From assembly GCF_019740355.2 (NCBI RefSeq), contig NZ_CP091819.1, positions 1,178,001 to 1,242,000 on the forward strand: a stretch of 64,000 nt of DNA, written 5' to 3'. A program made the position numbers and the translations under genes. Position 1 is the stretch's first letter. Every line of letters begins with the position of its first letter. This DNA comes from Paracrocinitomix mangrovi. GTDB lineage: Bacteria > Bacteroidota > Bacteroidia > Flavobacteriales_D > Crocinitomicaceae. The notes beneath the pieces were generated by a model that was not told the DNA's origin, searched no databases, and was given only the letters and a program-made list of their open reading frames with translations. Positions 11,013 to 17,211 of the stretch are shown here, one piece after another.

Positions 11013-11621
11013 TTAATGTCCCGCACTAAAAGCCGGCAAGAATATATTATTGATTGAATCTTTCATTTCAGGCTTCACGAAATGATTGTTAATCTCTTCT
11101 ACATCTACCGGCTCATATTTATGACCGTCCCATTCATGTCTAATAGCCACCATACCAACATCCGGATCTTTATATCCGATCAACAATTCACTGTGACCAT
11201 GCTCTGTAGTTCTCATTTCAATCATCCAACCTAAATATTGATTGGCTAATTTATATTCGTTATTGACGTTTTCTACAATGATAATTTGAGGAGTTGGTGC
11301 ACCATACAATCCTTGACGCATTTCAACTATGAATCCTCCTTTATAATCCTGTAAAGGTTTATGATCAAAAACTCTAAAATATTCGTAAGTACAGGGCGCT
11401 AATTTACTTGTATCTGAAGTGGTACACATCTGCAATTTCTCCATGATATCAATACAAACCGGATCTAATTGAGGACGAACGGTGTCTATCAATATCACCT
11501 CTCTTACAAAAGGTTTTGGTTCTTCAAATTGAACTTTGTCAGTATTATCTTGATTTTCAGAATCTCCGCCACAAGCAACTAAAAATGCTGCTAGAAAGAA
11601 AAAGAATGTGTATTTAATCAT
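11013..11621 (-). CDS. Hypothetical lipoprotein
   Basis: 202 residues with an SPII signal (lipobox FLVAC, Cys17) followed by an acidic linker (GGDSENQDNTDK). The body has Cys residues in PVCIDIMEKLQMCTTSDTS and APCTYEYF, a W-containing segment (LGWMIEMRTTEHGHSELLIGY) and a final charged stretch. No family recognised. It follows the GIN-domain gene with a one-base TAATG overlap and ends the pyrD operon, 56 bases before the nhaC start. Probably an envelope protein; function unknown. Confidence 0.65.
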   Translation of the reverse strand: MIKYTFFFFLAAFLVACGGDSENQDNTDKVQFEEPKPFVREVILIDTVRPQLDPVCIDIMEKLQMCTTSDTSKLAPCTYEYFRVFDHKPLQDYKGGFIVEMRQGLYGAPTPQIIIVENVNNEYKLANQYLGWMIEMRTTEHGHSELLIGYKDPDVGMVAIRHEWDGHKYEPVDVEEINNHFVKPEMKDSINNIFLPAFSAGH

Positions 11622-12316
11622 TAAGATTTAAATTTTTTGATCTCTCCTCCAGTAGTTTTTTCTTTAAAATTAGCTTCATCACCATCATAGATGTATTTGA
11701 TCACACCAGCGATAGTAACTTTAAGATCCATTTTTTCTTTTGCCCAGCAAGAAATTTCACCTCCAGAAGAAATTTTTGCAACTACTTCTTTAGCTTCTAA
11801 TGCTTTAGCTGTGATAAATCCACCGGTAGCAACTTTTAAATTAACGTAATCAGCTTTACCTCTTAATTTGATATTACCATTTCCTGTTGCTGCAATTGAT
11901 GCGTTCACGGTTTTGCAGTCTAACTCTGCAGAAATAATACCGTCAGTTGAACAGTTTAACTCAATTTCATTTCCAGTCAAAACATTTTCTACTTGAATCC
12001 AAGATCCTCCTTTAGCATCTATAGTAGAAAGTTCATTATACGTTACATAAATCTCCAACTCCAATTTTTTGAAAAGCGTCTTTTTGATATCCAAACTCAA
12101 TTTCCCTCCTTTTACTTCCCATACAATTTGATTATCCTCTAACTCTGGCTCGTTATTAATAACCTTAATGTGGTTTTTATCTCCCTTCTTTAAAAAAAGT
12201 TTAAAATTTCCGTTTGATTCTACCGAAGTAAAGTCTGATAAATCTTCTTCTTTTTCTCCTGCGAAAGAGATGTTAATACATAAAACTAAGGCTAATAAAG
12301 TGTATAAATTTTTCAT
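11621..12316 (-). CDS. GIN-domain (DUF2807) secreted protein
   Basis: 231 residues, signal peptide MKNLYTLLALVLCINISFAG. The rest is a repetitive right-handed beta structure with glycine-asparagine turns (VESNGNFKLFLKKG, IAATGNGNIKLRG, VATGGFITA, ISSGGEIS), the standard head GIN domain pattern. Family knowledge: these were called putative auto-transporter adhesins, but function is unknown. It starts ten bases after the HMG-CoA lyase gene and overlaps the lipoprotein gene by one base. Confidence 0.82.
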   Translation of the reverse strand: MKNLYTLLALVLCINISFAGEKEEDLSDFTSVESNGNFKLFLKKGDKNHIKVINNEPELEDNQIVWEVKGGKLSLDIKKTLFKKLELEIYVTYNELSTIDAKGGSWIQVENVLTGNEIELNCSTDGIISAELDCKTVNASIAATGNGNIKLRGKADYVNLKVATGGFITAKALEAKEVVAKISSGGEISCWAKEKMDLKVTIAGVIKYIYDGDEANFKEKTTGGEIKKFKS

Positions 12317-14346: not shown

Positions 14347-15270
14347 CTAGTATCTTGCACGGTAACGCCACTTCACTTTACCACCTTTTCCTTGTGTCAA
14401 GTTTCTGATGATTGAAACGTTGAAAAAGAAGTAAGCATCTTTTTGTTTAGAGTCTCCCCTTTGTTCTCCTGGATTTGTCCAATTTGGAAATGCGCCTAAA
14501 GAAGGGTCTGCATAATCAGGCTCAGTATATCCGTTACCAGCCCAATCATAGTAAACTCCAGATACGTCATCAAGATAATCTGTAAAAGTTTTGGTATAGC
14601 TCAATTCAAAGCTCATTCTCCATACCCTATCCAAACCAAGTTTGAAACCCATTCCGAAAGGAATTCCAATATTGACCAATCCATATTTTTTTGGACCACC
14701 AGGTAAACCCTGACCTTCTGTATTTAATGGACGTAAATTGGTTCCATCTTCAGCTTGAGGGATATAAGCAAAAACAGAGATTCCACTAAACAAATACAAC
14801 AAATCATTTTTGTTTCTATGTCCTTTTAGACCATATATTTTGTTTCTTCTACCGTAATGCTCGTTGTTATAAATAACTAACTCAAGATGTTGAGAAAATT
14901 CAATTAAATGCGTTTTAAAACTAAGATTTCTATTGTGTCTGAACGGCTCTGTTGTCAATTGATCTGAACCTCTTAAAACACCATATTGTAACAAAGATTT
15001 AGTTGCTACCCAAGGTCTCAGACGATATCTATAACCTAAGTGACCTGAAGGACGAGTAGTGACCCACTCAAGATCCATAAATGAATAATCGGTACCGATT
15101 TTATTTAAACCACCTAAATCCCCAAGGAAATTTGTAGCGCCAATACCAAACAACAACTCTTTACGTTGCCCCTTCCAATAATCAGAAGTGGTAAAGTTCG
15201 TATGAGTCTGAGACCATACGCCAGACACTACAGACAATGATATTAAACCAAGTAAGAGTTTCTTCATCAT
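14347..15270 (-). CDS. PorG-like (DUF6089) outer-membrane beta-barrel protein
   Basis: 307 residues, signal peptide ending VWSQ. Features I associate with DUF6089/PorG: ELLFGIGATNFLGDLGG at the mature start, YRYRLRPWVATKSLLQYG, RHNRNLSFKTHLIEFSQHLE, an FSGISVFAYIPQ strand and LNTEGQGLPGG, with a final barrel strand AYFFFNVSIIRN. Family knowledge: PorG is an outer-membrane component linked to the PorK/PorN rings of the T9SS. At 307 residues it is longer than the usual PorG (~230-280). It lies 123 bases downstream of a protein with a GldM-like domain, in the same direction. A TATTTTCG element about 28 bases upstream suggests its own promoter. Confidence 0.72.
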   Translation of the reverse strand: MMKKLLLGLISLSVVSGVWSQTHTNFTTSDYWKGQRKELLFGIGATNFLGDLGGLNKIGTDYSFMDLEWVTTRPSGHLGYRYRLRPWVATKSLLQYGVLRGSDQLTTEPFRHNRNLSFKTHLIEFSQHLELVIYNNEHYGRRNKIYGLKGHRNKNDLLYLFSGISVFAYIPQAEDGTNLRPLNTEGQGLPGGPKKYGLVNIGIPFGMGFKLGLDRVWRMSFELSYTKTFTDYLDDVSGVYYDWAGNGYTEPDYADPSLGAFPNWTNPGEQRGDSKQKDAYFFFNVSIIRNLTQGKGGKVKWRYRARY

Positions 15271-15393
15271 TTATAAATCACATACCTTCGGCAACGAAAA
15301 TAAGAAATCTATGTTAAAAATAAGCAGTTAATACCTAATTTGTCAAGTATTTTTTGAACAATTCTACTTATTTAACGATTTAGTAAACCGTTA

Positions 15394-16224
15394 TTAATTT
15401 AACAAAACATACCTCAAAGGGTTCAGTCTAACAACATCTCCTTCTTTGGTTTGTCCATCAATTTCTTCGAAAAATATAGTTTCTCCTGCTCCAATTTTTT
15501 CAATCGCCTCCTTCATTTCTTCATTCAATTGATTGCTTTCTTCTTTGTAGTGAACTTCTCCTCCAAGACCATCTATCACATGTAATTCAAAATGAATAAT
15601 GTTGATATCAGACTGTGTCGTTAAACCTTTGTTATCCATTAACTCTTCTTTTGAGATATAACCATTTAGTTTACCGCTAATCCTTGGCCACACATCAGTA
15701 TAATTAGTTGCTGTTTTAGCTTCTTCATGTTTTACCTCATGTGCTTCGATTTTCTCTACATCAATTTCCTCTACAGTTTCATCTGTTGACTCAATTTGAT
15801 CCTGGATTTTTTGGTTTTCTAAAGTATTAGTTTTATCATCTATATCTTCTGTTGTTGAGTTGTTAATTGAAATAATTTGTTTAGTGGACTGGTCATTTTC
15901 AACTTGCGCTAAATTTTCCAGATTTTCTGATACATCATTAAAAGCTATCAATTGTGGTTGGCTACTTGTTACCTCTACTTCCGGAGGTGCTTCGGTGTTT
16001 AAAACCGATTGATCCGCAAGTTGCTCTTCCCCGCTAAATGCTATCACTCCTCCAACGATTATTGAAACTGATGCTAAACCTGTGGTGCCGATAAACCAGG
16101 ACGATTTGTAAAAAGGCTTGGTCATCACTGCGTGGTTTTTTAACAAGCCATTAAAATCTTTATGAGCTTGTATGGATTTGGAATCGACTGGTGGTCTGTC
16201 CAAATTAATCTTTACGTTTTTCAT
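15394..16224 (-). CDS. Single-pass membrane protein with GldM-like C-terminal domain; candidate anti-sigma partner
   Basis: 276 residues. A ~40-residue basic cytoplasmic head (INLDRPPVDSKSIQAHKDF) is followed by one membrane helix (about 43-66), a long acidic linker (about 70-175, rich in Glu, Asp, Thr and Gln), and a compact C-terminal domain (about 182-276). That domain follows the pattern I know from the last domain of GldM/PorM: GKLNGYISKEELMDNKGL, HFELHVID, SNQLNEEMKEAIEKIGAGE, IFFEEIDG and VRLNPLRYVL. It sits after an ECF sigma gene, so the head may sequester sigma while the periplasmic end senses an envelope or T9SS state (inference). No classical RskA or zinc-finger anti-sigma motif is seen. 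Confidence 0.6.
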   Translation of the reverse strand: MKNVKINLDRPPVDSKSIQAHKDFNGLLKNHAVMTKPFYKSSWFIGTTGLASVSIIVGGVIAFSGEEQLADQSVLNTEAPPEVEVTSSQPQLIAFNDVSENLENLAQVENDQSTKQIISINNSTTEDIDDKTNTLENQKIQDQIESTDETVEEIDVEKIEAHEVKHEEAKTATNYTDVWPRISGKLNGYISKEELMDNKGLTTQSDINIIHFELHVIDGLGGEVHYKEESNQLNEEMKEAIEKIGAGETIFFEEIDGQTKEGDVVRLNPLRYVLLN

Positions 16225-16361
16225 TAGTAAATGTTTAATTCCTACTTACCGGGAGACATTTTCTTCGATAAATAAAATAACTGGCCCAGTAAGAACTACT
16301 TATTTTATTCATGTTGATTACTTCTCCTCTATTCATTATCTTATTAGCTGTAAAGCTTTAT

Positions 16362-16389
16362 TGCCTCGGCCACCGGAGCAACCGAGGCA
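16362..16389. other. Perfect 8-bp inverted repeat downstream of the sigma gene
   Basis: TGCCTCGG (16362-16369) pairs perfectly with CCGAGGCA (16382-16389) around a 12-base loop, seven bases after the stop of the ECF sigma gene. On the plus strand it is followed by ATTATTATTATTT, but no plus-strand gene precedes it. On the minus (sigma) strand it is followed by AATAAAGC with no U run. It could be an imperfect attenuator or a 3'-end stabiliser between sigma and its membrane partner. Confidence 0.5.
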
Positions 16390-16395
16390 TTATTA

Positions 16396-16968
16396 TTATT
16401 TAATCTTTTCAAAAATCTTTCTCATTTTCTTAACCACTCTATGAGATTTCACTTTTGCATTATTTTCAGTGAGATCTAATATATCTCCAATTTCACGGAA
16501 TGATCTTTTCTCAAAAAATCTTAATTCGACCATCTGAATTTCTTCTTCATTTAGTTTTTCGATAACCTTTAAAAGCTTTGCACGGTTTTCTAAGGTTTTA
16601 TCTTCATCCCATTCCTCAATCATTTCAAAGAGATGCATACTTTCAACATTAACTGTTCTACTCGCTTTTTTATCTCTAAAAGATTGATACAGTTCAGATT
16701 TTGCGATTCTATACAACCATGAAGCGAATGGCACACCACGATATTCATATTTATGAATGTTGTTTAGCGCTTTTAAAAACACCTGACTGGTTACATCATA
16801 TGCGGTGTCTTTGTCATCCATTCTTTGGTAGATATACCTAAAAATCTGTTCGTAATATTTGTTGTAAAGTGGCTCAAACCCCTTGGGATCCTCCTTCGCG
16901 TACTTTACCCACCTAAGCTCCTCCTGGAGCTTATCCTCTGTGTGATGATAAATAGGGTTGACTGGCAT
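16396..16968 (-). CDS. ECF-type RNA polymerase sigma factor
   Basis: 190 residues. Region 2 (EPLYNKYYEQIFRYIYQRM, DKDTAYDVTSQVFLKAL, FASWLYRIAKSELYQSFRDKK) and region 4 (IEKLNEEEIQMVELRFFEKRSFREIGDILDLTENNAKVKSHRVVKKMR) are complete and no C-terminal extension is present. Function: directs RNA polymerase to a stimulus-specific regulon. The gene 172 bases downstream encodes a single-pass membrane protein, the usual sigma/regulator layout in Bacteroidota. Divergent from sanA across a 243-base intergenic region with no clear TAnnTTTG, so its promoter may be of another class, possibly its own. Confidence 0.88.
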   Translation of the reverse strand: MPVNPIYHHTEDKLQEELRWVKYAKEDPKGFEPLYNKYYEQIFRYIYQRMDDKDTAYDVTSQVFLKALNNIHKYEYRGVPFASWLYRIAKSELYQSFRDKKASRTVNVESMHLFEMIEEWDEDKTLENRAKLLKVIEKLNEEEIQMVELRFFEKRSFREIGDILDLTENNAKVKSHRVVKKMRKIFEKIK

Positions 16969-17211
16969 AATTCTCTGTTTGGTTTTATTTCCTTTGCAAT
17001 TGTTATAATTCTGAATTGCCGGTTGGTTACAAATTATTTTCTATCTGTTATTGTAAAGCAATTTCTTTGCCATAATCATTGAACGAAGATAAAATCTATC
17101 TATTGTGTAGACTATACACGAATAATATTTCAAGAATAGCGGAAAAAAATTGGTTTTAATTGCACTAATAAGTTACAACAATAAAATCAAAATAAAAAAT
17201 CAAATTGCCGC

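Follow-up and report, generated by a model that had tools for sequence, protein, structure and literature searches.

The genome of Paracrocinitomix mangrovi (Crocinitomicaceae, Flavobacteriales) is a single contig of 4.37 Mb, from which we analysed a stretch of 64,000 nucleotides, referred to here as the window. Genes for a sigma factor, a single-pass membrane protein and an outer-membrane barrel lie in a row on its minus strand (Table 1), as an earlier note on this DNA had described; pyrD and an HMG-CoA-lyase-like gene come next. These last two were considered as possible parts of the same circuit and rejected as housekeeping genes, being conserved neighbours within the family that are absent at related loci in other genomes (L041, L045 and L047). 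Genes for a DUF2807 protein and a lipoprotein (window positions 11621-12316 and 11013-11621) lie on the same strand after the HMG-CoA-lyase-like gene, and no link between them and the circuit was found. The order of an ECF sigma factor, a protein with a cytoplasmic motif and transmembrane (TM) helix, a D4 domain and a PorG-like barrel recurs in relatives of several families. The sigma factor contains regions 2 and 4 only and passes the curated cutoffs of the corresponding models (PF04542, Sigma70_r2, 50.3 bits; PF04545, Sigma70_r4, 36.7 bits) and of the ECF family model TIGR02937 (sigma70-ECF, 77.0 bits against a cutoff of 42.9), which places it among the ECF sigma factors.

Table 1 Features of the sigma factor locus, in window coordinates
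Feature	Position	Strand	Basis
Sigma operon promoter, ECF-type (candidate)	17005..17031	-	Sequence; kept in 9 aligned orthologues
ECF sigma factor, 190 aa	16396..16968	-	Sigma models; orthologues in 103/199 genomes of the order
Putative anti-sigma factor, single-pass membrane protein, 276 aa, with GldM/PorM D4-like periplasmic domain	15394..16224	-	
Residues 1-42, cytoplasmic motif, putative sigma-binding segment	16099..16224	-	Low-confidence model and conservation
Residues 43-62, transmembrane helix	16039..16098	-	Sequence; modelled helix 42-59
Residues 63-172, periplasmic linker, poorly conserved	15709..16038	-	Column identity 0.19; pLDDT < 50
Residues 173-276, GldM/PorM D4-like Ig domain	15397..15708	-	Profile and predicted structure
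PorG-like 8-stranded outer-membrane barrel, 307 aa, without C-tail cysteine	14347..15270	-	PorG model, strand prediction

The membrane protein opens with a cytoplasmic segment of consensus MKNxKxNLDRPxxxSxxIxxxxxFxxxL, in which two short helices are predicted at low confidence (residues 15-21 and 24-33, pLDDT about 50-68). Among 199 genomes sampled from the order, 85 had this N-terminal motif and 103 the sigma factor, and 80 of the 81 parsed motif matches lay directly behind a sigma gene, at 0-175 bp and on the same strand, the one exception falling at a contig end; the conserved neighbourhood that had been predicted for the pair is therefore seen in relatives. Mean pairwise column identity was 0.48 for the motif and 0.46 for the D4 domain, compared with 0.19 for the linker. 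The first 42 residues matched no Pfam or NCBIfam model at E <= 1 and no known anti-sigma domain such as those of class I (zinc or RseA type), FecR or RskA, although short segments can escape such models. A scan of named genomes with the membrane protein returned two loci only, and no convincing match to the motif was found outside the order in a phylum sample covering other orders and families, where the five of seven matches that came from other orders were rejected as covering the TM part alone (query residues 29-66). The protein adjoins the sigma gene and has a single TM helix and a conserved cytoplasmic segment, as anti-sigma factors do, and it is because of its pairing with the sigma gene that we infer an anti-sigma role; judged on sequence, the two very probably constitute a sigma/anti-sigma pair.

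Relatives carry the module in several forms. The fused form, with cytoplasmic motif, TM helix, variable linker and D4 domain in one protein, is found in the window and at L031-L039, L042, L048 and L275. At a second group of loci (L040, L041, L045, L047, L049, L050, L277 and L284) the motif and TM helix are joined to a periplasmic region of about 500 amino acids and D4 is secreted as a protein of its own, mostly encoded by the next gene and 130-150 amino acids in length (291 in L045). This long periplasmic region matched no Pfam or NCBIfam family (L040:4511-6040, L041, L045, L047 and L049). The occurrence of D4 both as part of the membrane protein and as the product of a nearby gene makes a functional link between the two likely. 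The reduced form consists of the motif and TM helix only, about 55-61 amino acids, in open frames of 57-82 amino acids directly behind the sigma gene (L266-L269, L273, L274 and L276), several of which have a PorG-like barrel and pyrD downstream, an arrangement found also in most of the window's family. Two of the loci with a separate D4 protein, L045 and L284, carry an FGE-fold GldJ/GldK-like gene inside the operon. At L044 (3710-5448) a large partner is spread over three overlapping frames, probably through frameshifts or assembly errors, and two loci of genus g10 (L270 and L272) keep the sigma gene, the PorG-like barrel and pyrD with no recognisable partner, L270 having two barrels.

The earlier note had proposed that the periplasmic domain, at residues ~182-276, follows the C-terminal pattern of GldM/PorM. 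Alone, the window sequence scored 18.6 bits as a whole protein and 20.6 bits as a single domain against PF12080 (GldM_4th), below the gathering cutoff of 24.6, and a phmmer search of the PDB with the single membrane protein found nothing. A profile built from 17 relatives with fused and separate D4 domains, 14 of which match PF12080, was then compared with 177,635 PDB sequences, and its top five matches were PorM (E 4e-5) and GldM (E 0.065). In an AlphaFold model of the membrane protein built from 12 orthologues, residues 172-276 form a domain with a pLDDT of about 92 behind a disordered linker (pLDDT < 50). Foldseek searches with this domain gave PorM and GldM as the sole matches at E <= 0.001, and structural alignment to PorM D4 gave a Z score of 14.7 and an rmsd of 1.9 over 101 residues, the next unrelated chain reaching Z 5.8. 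The proposed domain assignment and the structural comparison suggested with it both held up, the residues named in the note agreeing with those of the modelled domain, and the C-terminal 104 residues almost certainly adopt the GldM/PorM D4 fold.

The similarity is confined to the D4 tip: Pfam models of GldM_1st, GldM_2nd and GldM_3rd had no match, so the protein is not itself a GldM. It shares with GldM/PorM the fold over the whole D4 domain and differs from it in sequence (17-19% identity), in the lack of D1, D2 and D3, and in its setting, the domain either sharing a protein with the sigma-linked cytoplasmic motif or forming a secreted protein of its own. D4 of PorM is sufficient by itself for PorN binding (PMC5790014), and its residue S460 crosslinks to PorN A241 (PMC12421860). 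In the profile alignment, with residue numbers assigned by offset, S460 lies opposite G219 of a hairpin, VIDGLGG, which is kept in close orthologues. The genuine gldM copies of P. mangrovi are located elsewhere in the genome, away from the window locus. D1-D3 are present in both GldM proteins, whose own D4 domains were missed by Pfam and by the 17-member profile; a PF12080 search of the genome yielded nothing above threshold, real GldM proteins included. The view that the membrane protein borrowed a machine domain stands as to the domain type, but such borrowing would not be recent, the sequence being not detectably similar to the D4 of either GldM protein. As the D4 of the host's GldM has diverged from that of the partner, GldN binding need not be conserved and simple competition for GldN is uncertain. 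A secreted 398-aa protein encoded elsewhere in the genome (L065:3064-4260) resembled the GldM model weakly over its C-terminal half, scoring 38 bits, which is below the cutoff.

Downstream of the membrane protein, the barrel had been named as DUF6089/PorG-like, a description that holds for its likeness to PorG, with eight predicted strands and about 80 bits (78.8-80.0) against the PorG model NF052316, but does not extend to PorG itself. We rejected that identity as the score falls short of the equivalog cutoff of 130, the periplasmic C-tail (...GGKVKWRYRARY) contains no cysteine, and the true PorG of this genome is encoded at C1:1760546 (172.5 bits), ending in ...KRGICDFGAPFH. PorG needs its tail cysteine in order to function and to form its bond with GldK/PorK (PMC12635249). 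One of several PorG-like paralogues in the genome, the window barrel returned generic 8-stranded barrels (OmpA, OmpX, OmpW) and no PorG entry in fold searches; it may partner the sensor at the outer membrane.

A candidate promoter for the operon lies 36 bp before the sigma ATG and comprises a -35 element TGTAACC (17031-17025), a spacer of 16 and a -10 element TTAT (17008-17005). The same TGTAACC-N16-TTAT is found upstream of sigma in nine aligned orthologues whose flanks have diverged. Of 25 relatives whose partner is full-length, 21 have the form TGTAAC-N17/18-TTAT no more than 200 bp from the sigma start, as do one of seven loci with a mini partner and one of six without a recognisable partner, against a background of 0.6% of random 200-bp windows from the same loci. 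The association of promoter loss with a mini or absent partner is a weak correlation, confounded by these groups being clades. By its upstream sequence, the operon appears to be autoregulated through an ECF-type promoter.

Exact matches to TGTAACC-N16/17-TTAT number three in the genome, at the sigma operon, at one coding site and 34 bp before gldJ, so that the two intergenic strict matches are those of the sigma operon and gldJ (TIGR03524, 460.6 bits, cutoff 458.2). Every one of the nine fused-clade genomes has the exact motif upstream of gldJ, 19-129 bp ahead of the gene and with spacers that differ between genera, and in each it accompanies the sigma operon motif, the operon at L036 being one base short of the strict form. 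Among 19 further gldJ loci from several families, 13 have a strict TGTAAC-N17/18-TTAT and the other six a degenerate form. The motif at gldJ is kept in two genomes despite the lack of a recognisable partner (G012 and G021), and also in G008, where the sigma operon has lost its own. No strict promoter match was found at gldK, gldL, gldM or gldN of P. mangrovi. From the promoter sequences gldJ is a likely target of the sigma factor, and the motif common to gldJ and the sigma operon gives independent support to the tie between this circuit and the type IX secretion system (T9SS) and gliding machine that had been proposed from gene content.

Only exact patterns were used to look for the wider regulon. 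Genome-wide counts were not above those of a reversed control (3 vs 14 exact and 32 vs 88 relaxed matches); little weight therefore attaches to any single match, the regulon must be small, and support comes from recurrence at the same genes rather than from the count. The pattern GTAAC-N-N16/17-TTATA was dropped as its 35 matches were no more than in the control. When the genes behind the motif were clustered, the dominant family was GldJ/FGE-like, with 14 sites in 10 genomes including that of P. mangrovi. A second family, of secreted proteins with the consensus CGxGSxxGFNGW, lies behind the motif in five genomes (L133, L141, L147, L150 and L159), and its member at L147 carries a T9SS sorting tail that scores below threshold (PF18962). 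P. mangrovi also has a relaxed copy of the motif 26 bp ahead of a gene for a 289-aa FGE-fold GldK-like protein (L314:1994-2863, G000:C1:2840440).

Since a membrane protein tipped with D4 pairs with a sigma factor whose promoter precedes gldJ, the simplest reading is that it senses the track or ring and thereby controls how much GldJ is supplied. GldJ, GldK and GldN have been modelled as a moving track, with PorG disulfide-bonded to GldK (PMC12635249). In this scheme the membrane protein would use its 40-residue cytoplasmic segment to keep the sigma factor at the inner membrane and would extend across the periplasm a copy of D4, the tip with which the GldM/PorM motor contacts the GldJKN track or PorKN ring on its GldN/PorN side. 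Whether or not this copy docks on the track may then alter retention of the sigma factor, whichever direction the response takes, and free sigma would transcribe gldJ together with its own operon including the PorG-like barrel. GldJ being a structural part of the track, such homeostatic feedback would bring the supply of this lipoprotein into line with the condition of the machine. These observations suggest that the cell keeps watch on the machine for gliding and secretion and tunes track supply accordingly, and we give a probability of roughly 0.55 to the reading as an autoregulated ECF sigma/membrane anti-sigma module for gliding and the T9SS, with a motor-tip domain as its sensor and GldJ supply as its output. 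Binding of D4 to the track is a tentative part of this scheme. More speculative still is the specific version in which the anti-sigma factor docks its GldM-type D4 on the GldJKN track (or on motor-free GldN) and so couples track occupancy to gldJ transcription, a form of mimicry feedback on T9SS/gliding assembly.

The same pair could instead carry a D4-like domain that is a general periplasmic Ig module with a different ligand, for example misfolded or unsecreted protein, gldJ being a target of an envelope response and not the thing sensed. The distance of the domain from the host's own GldM D4, the long periplasmic region without known family in the two-gene relatives and the presence of secreted proteins of unknown function among the targets all fit such a module, as does the L065 protein, whose GldM-like region is weak and which is no T9SS core gene. 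We consider it unlikely, however, as PorM and GldM are the only solved fold relatives at significance, the neighbouring genes are PorG-like and in two relatives also FGE-fold GldJ/K-like, and the most recurrent target family is GldJ-like. Less probable again is that another ECF sigma factor of similar promoter type transcribes gldJ and that the module controls only its own operon with the barrel. ECF promoters within one genome can look alike, the SM6 ECF promoters of Flavobacterium psychrophilum were considered possibly common to several sigma factors (PMC9723704), and in G008 the gldJ motif outlived that of the sigma operon; yet the two intergenic sites among the three strict matches in the P. 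mangrovi genome are precisely the sigma operon and gldJ, and both sites recur together in all nine clade genomes with the one-base exception at L036. That the membrane protein is a T9SS accessory or coactivator, adjacent to the sigma gene through co-transcription only, would agree with its matching no known anti-sigma family but is improbable given that the cytoplasmic motif is conserved like D4 while the linker is not, and persists without any periplasmic domain in mini partners directly behind sigma.

The preferred reading, a track or ring sensor acting on GldJ supply, has partial counterparts among known systems. CnrY, a class II anti-sigma factor, wraps CnrH with two helices (PMC7406223), and the short two-helix cytoplasmic segment before a single TM helix resembles this arrangement; the likeness is a lead only, no sequence similarity being established and the partner there being metal-sensing where a motor-tip domain is found here. 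SigP of Porphyromonas gingivalis is an ECF sigma factor that regulates itself as well as genes for T9SS components (PMC4800418, PMC7712824), as proposed for the sigma factor described here. SigP differs in being controlled by the response regulator PorX, with no anti-sigma factor known, and the motif proposed for its promoters, C(T)AAA... (PMC4800418), is unlike TGTAACC-N16/17-TTAT. In F. psychrophilum, SM6 promoters of ECF type with a CGT box in the -10 element precede T9SS genes (a PorG homologue and GldN) and an ECF/anti-sigma pair (PMC9723704), and many of the gldJ promoters found here likewise contain CGTTAT, but that sigma/anti-sigma pair has not been identified with the present family and no GldM domain was reported. 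We found no paper joining type IX secretion, an anti-sigma factor and GldM, and no description of such a circuit in the literature on anti-sigma factors, PorM and type IX secretion. Control of T9SS genes by ECF sigma factors therefore has precedents, whereas an anti-sigma factor with a machine-tip domain is new as far as could be checked.

Regulation of the T9SS has been worked out mainly in P. gingivalis (PorXY-SigP), and in the literature searched we found no account of how gliding Flavobacteriales match track supply to the machine. With a defined sensor, sigma factor and target, the locus makes it directly testable how the state of the T9SS/gliding machine is reported to RNA polymerase, the candidate regulator having, fused or separate and across several families, a domain of the very machine that it would control. 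The cytoplasmic motif and the promoter together provide a marker for finding the circuit in other genomes. Within the P. mangrovi genome, a second gldM-gldN pair lies about 11 kb from gldKLMN (L064, G000:C1:1575000-1594900), and about ten small genes for secreted or hypothetical proteins lie between the two gldM-gldN-bearing clusters.
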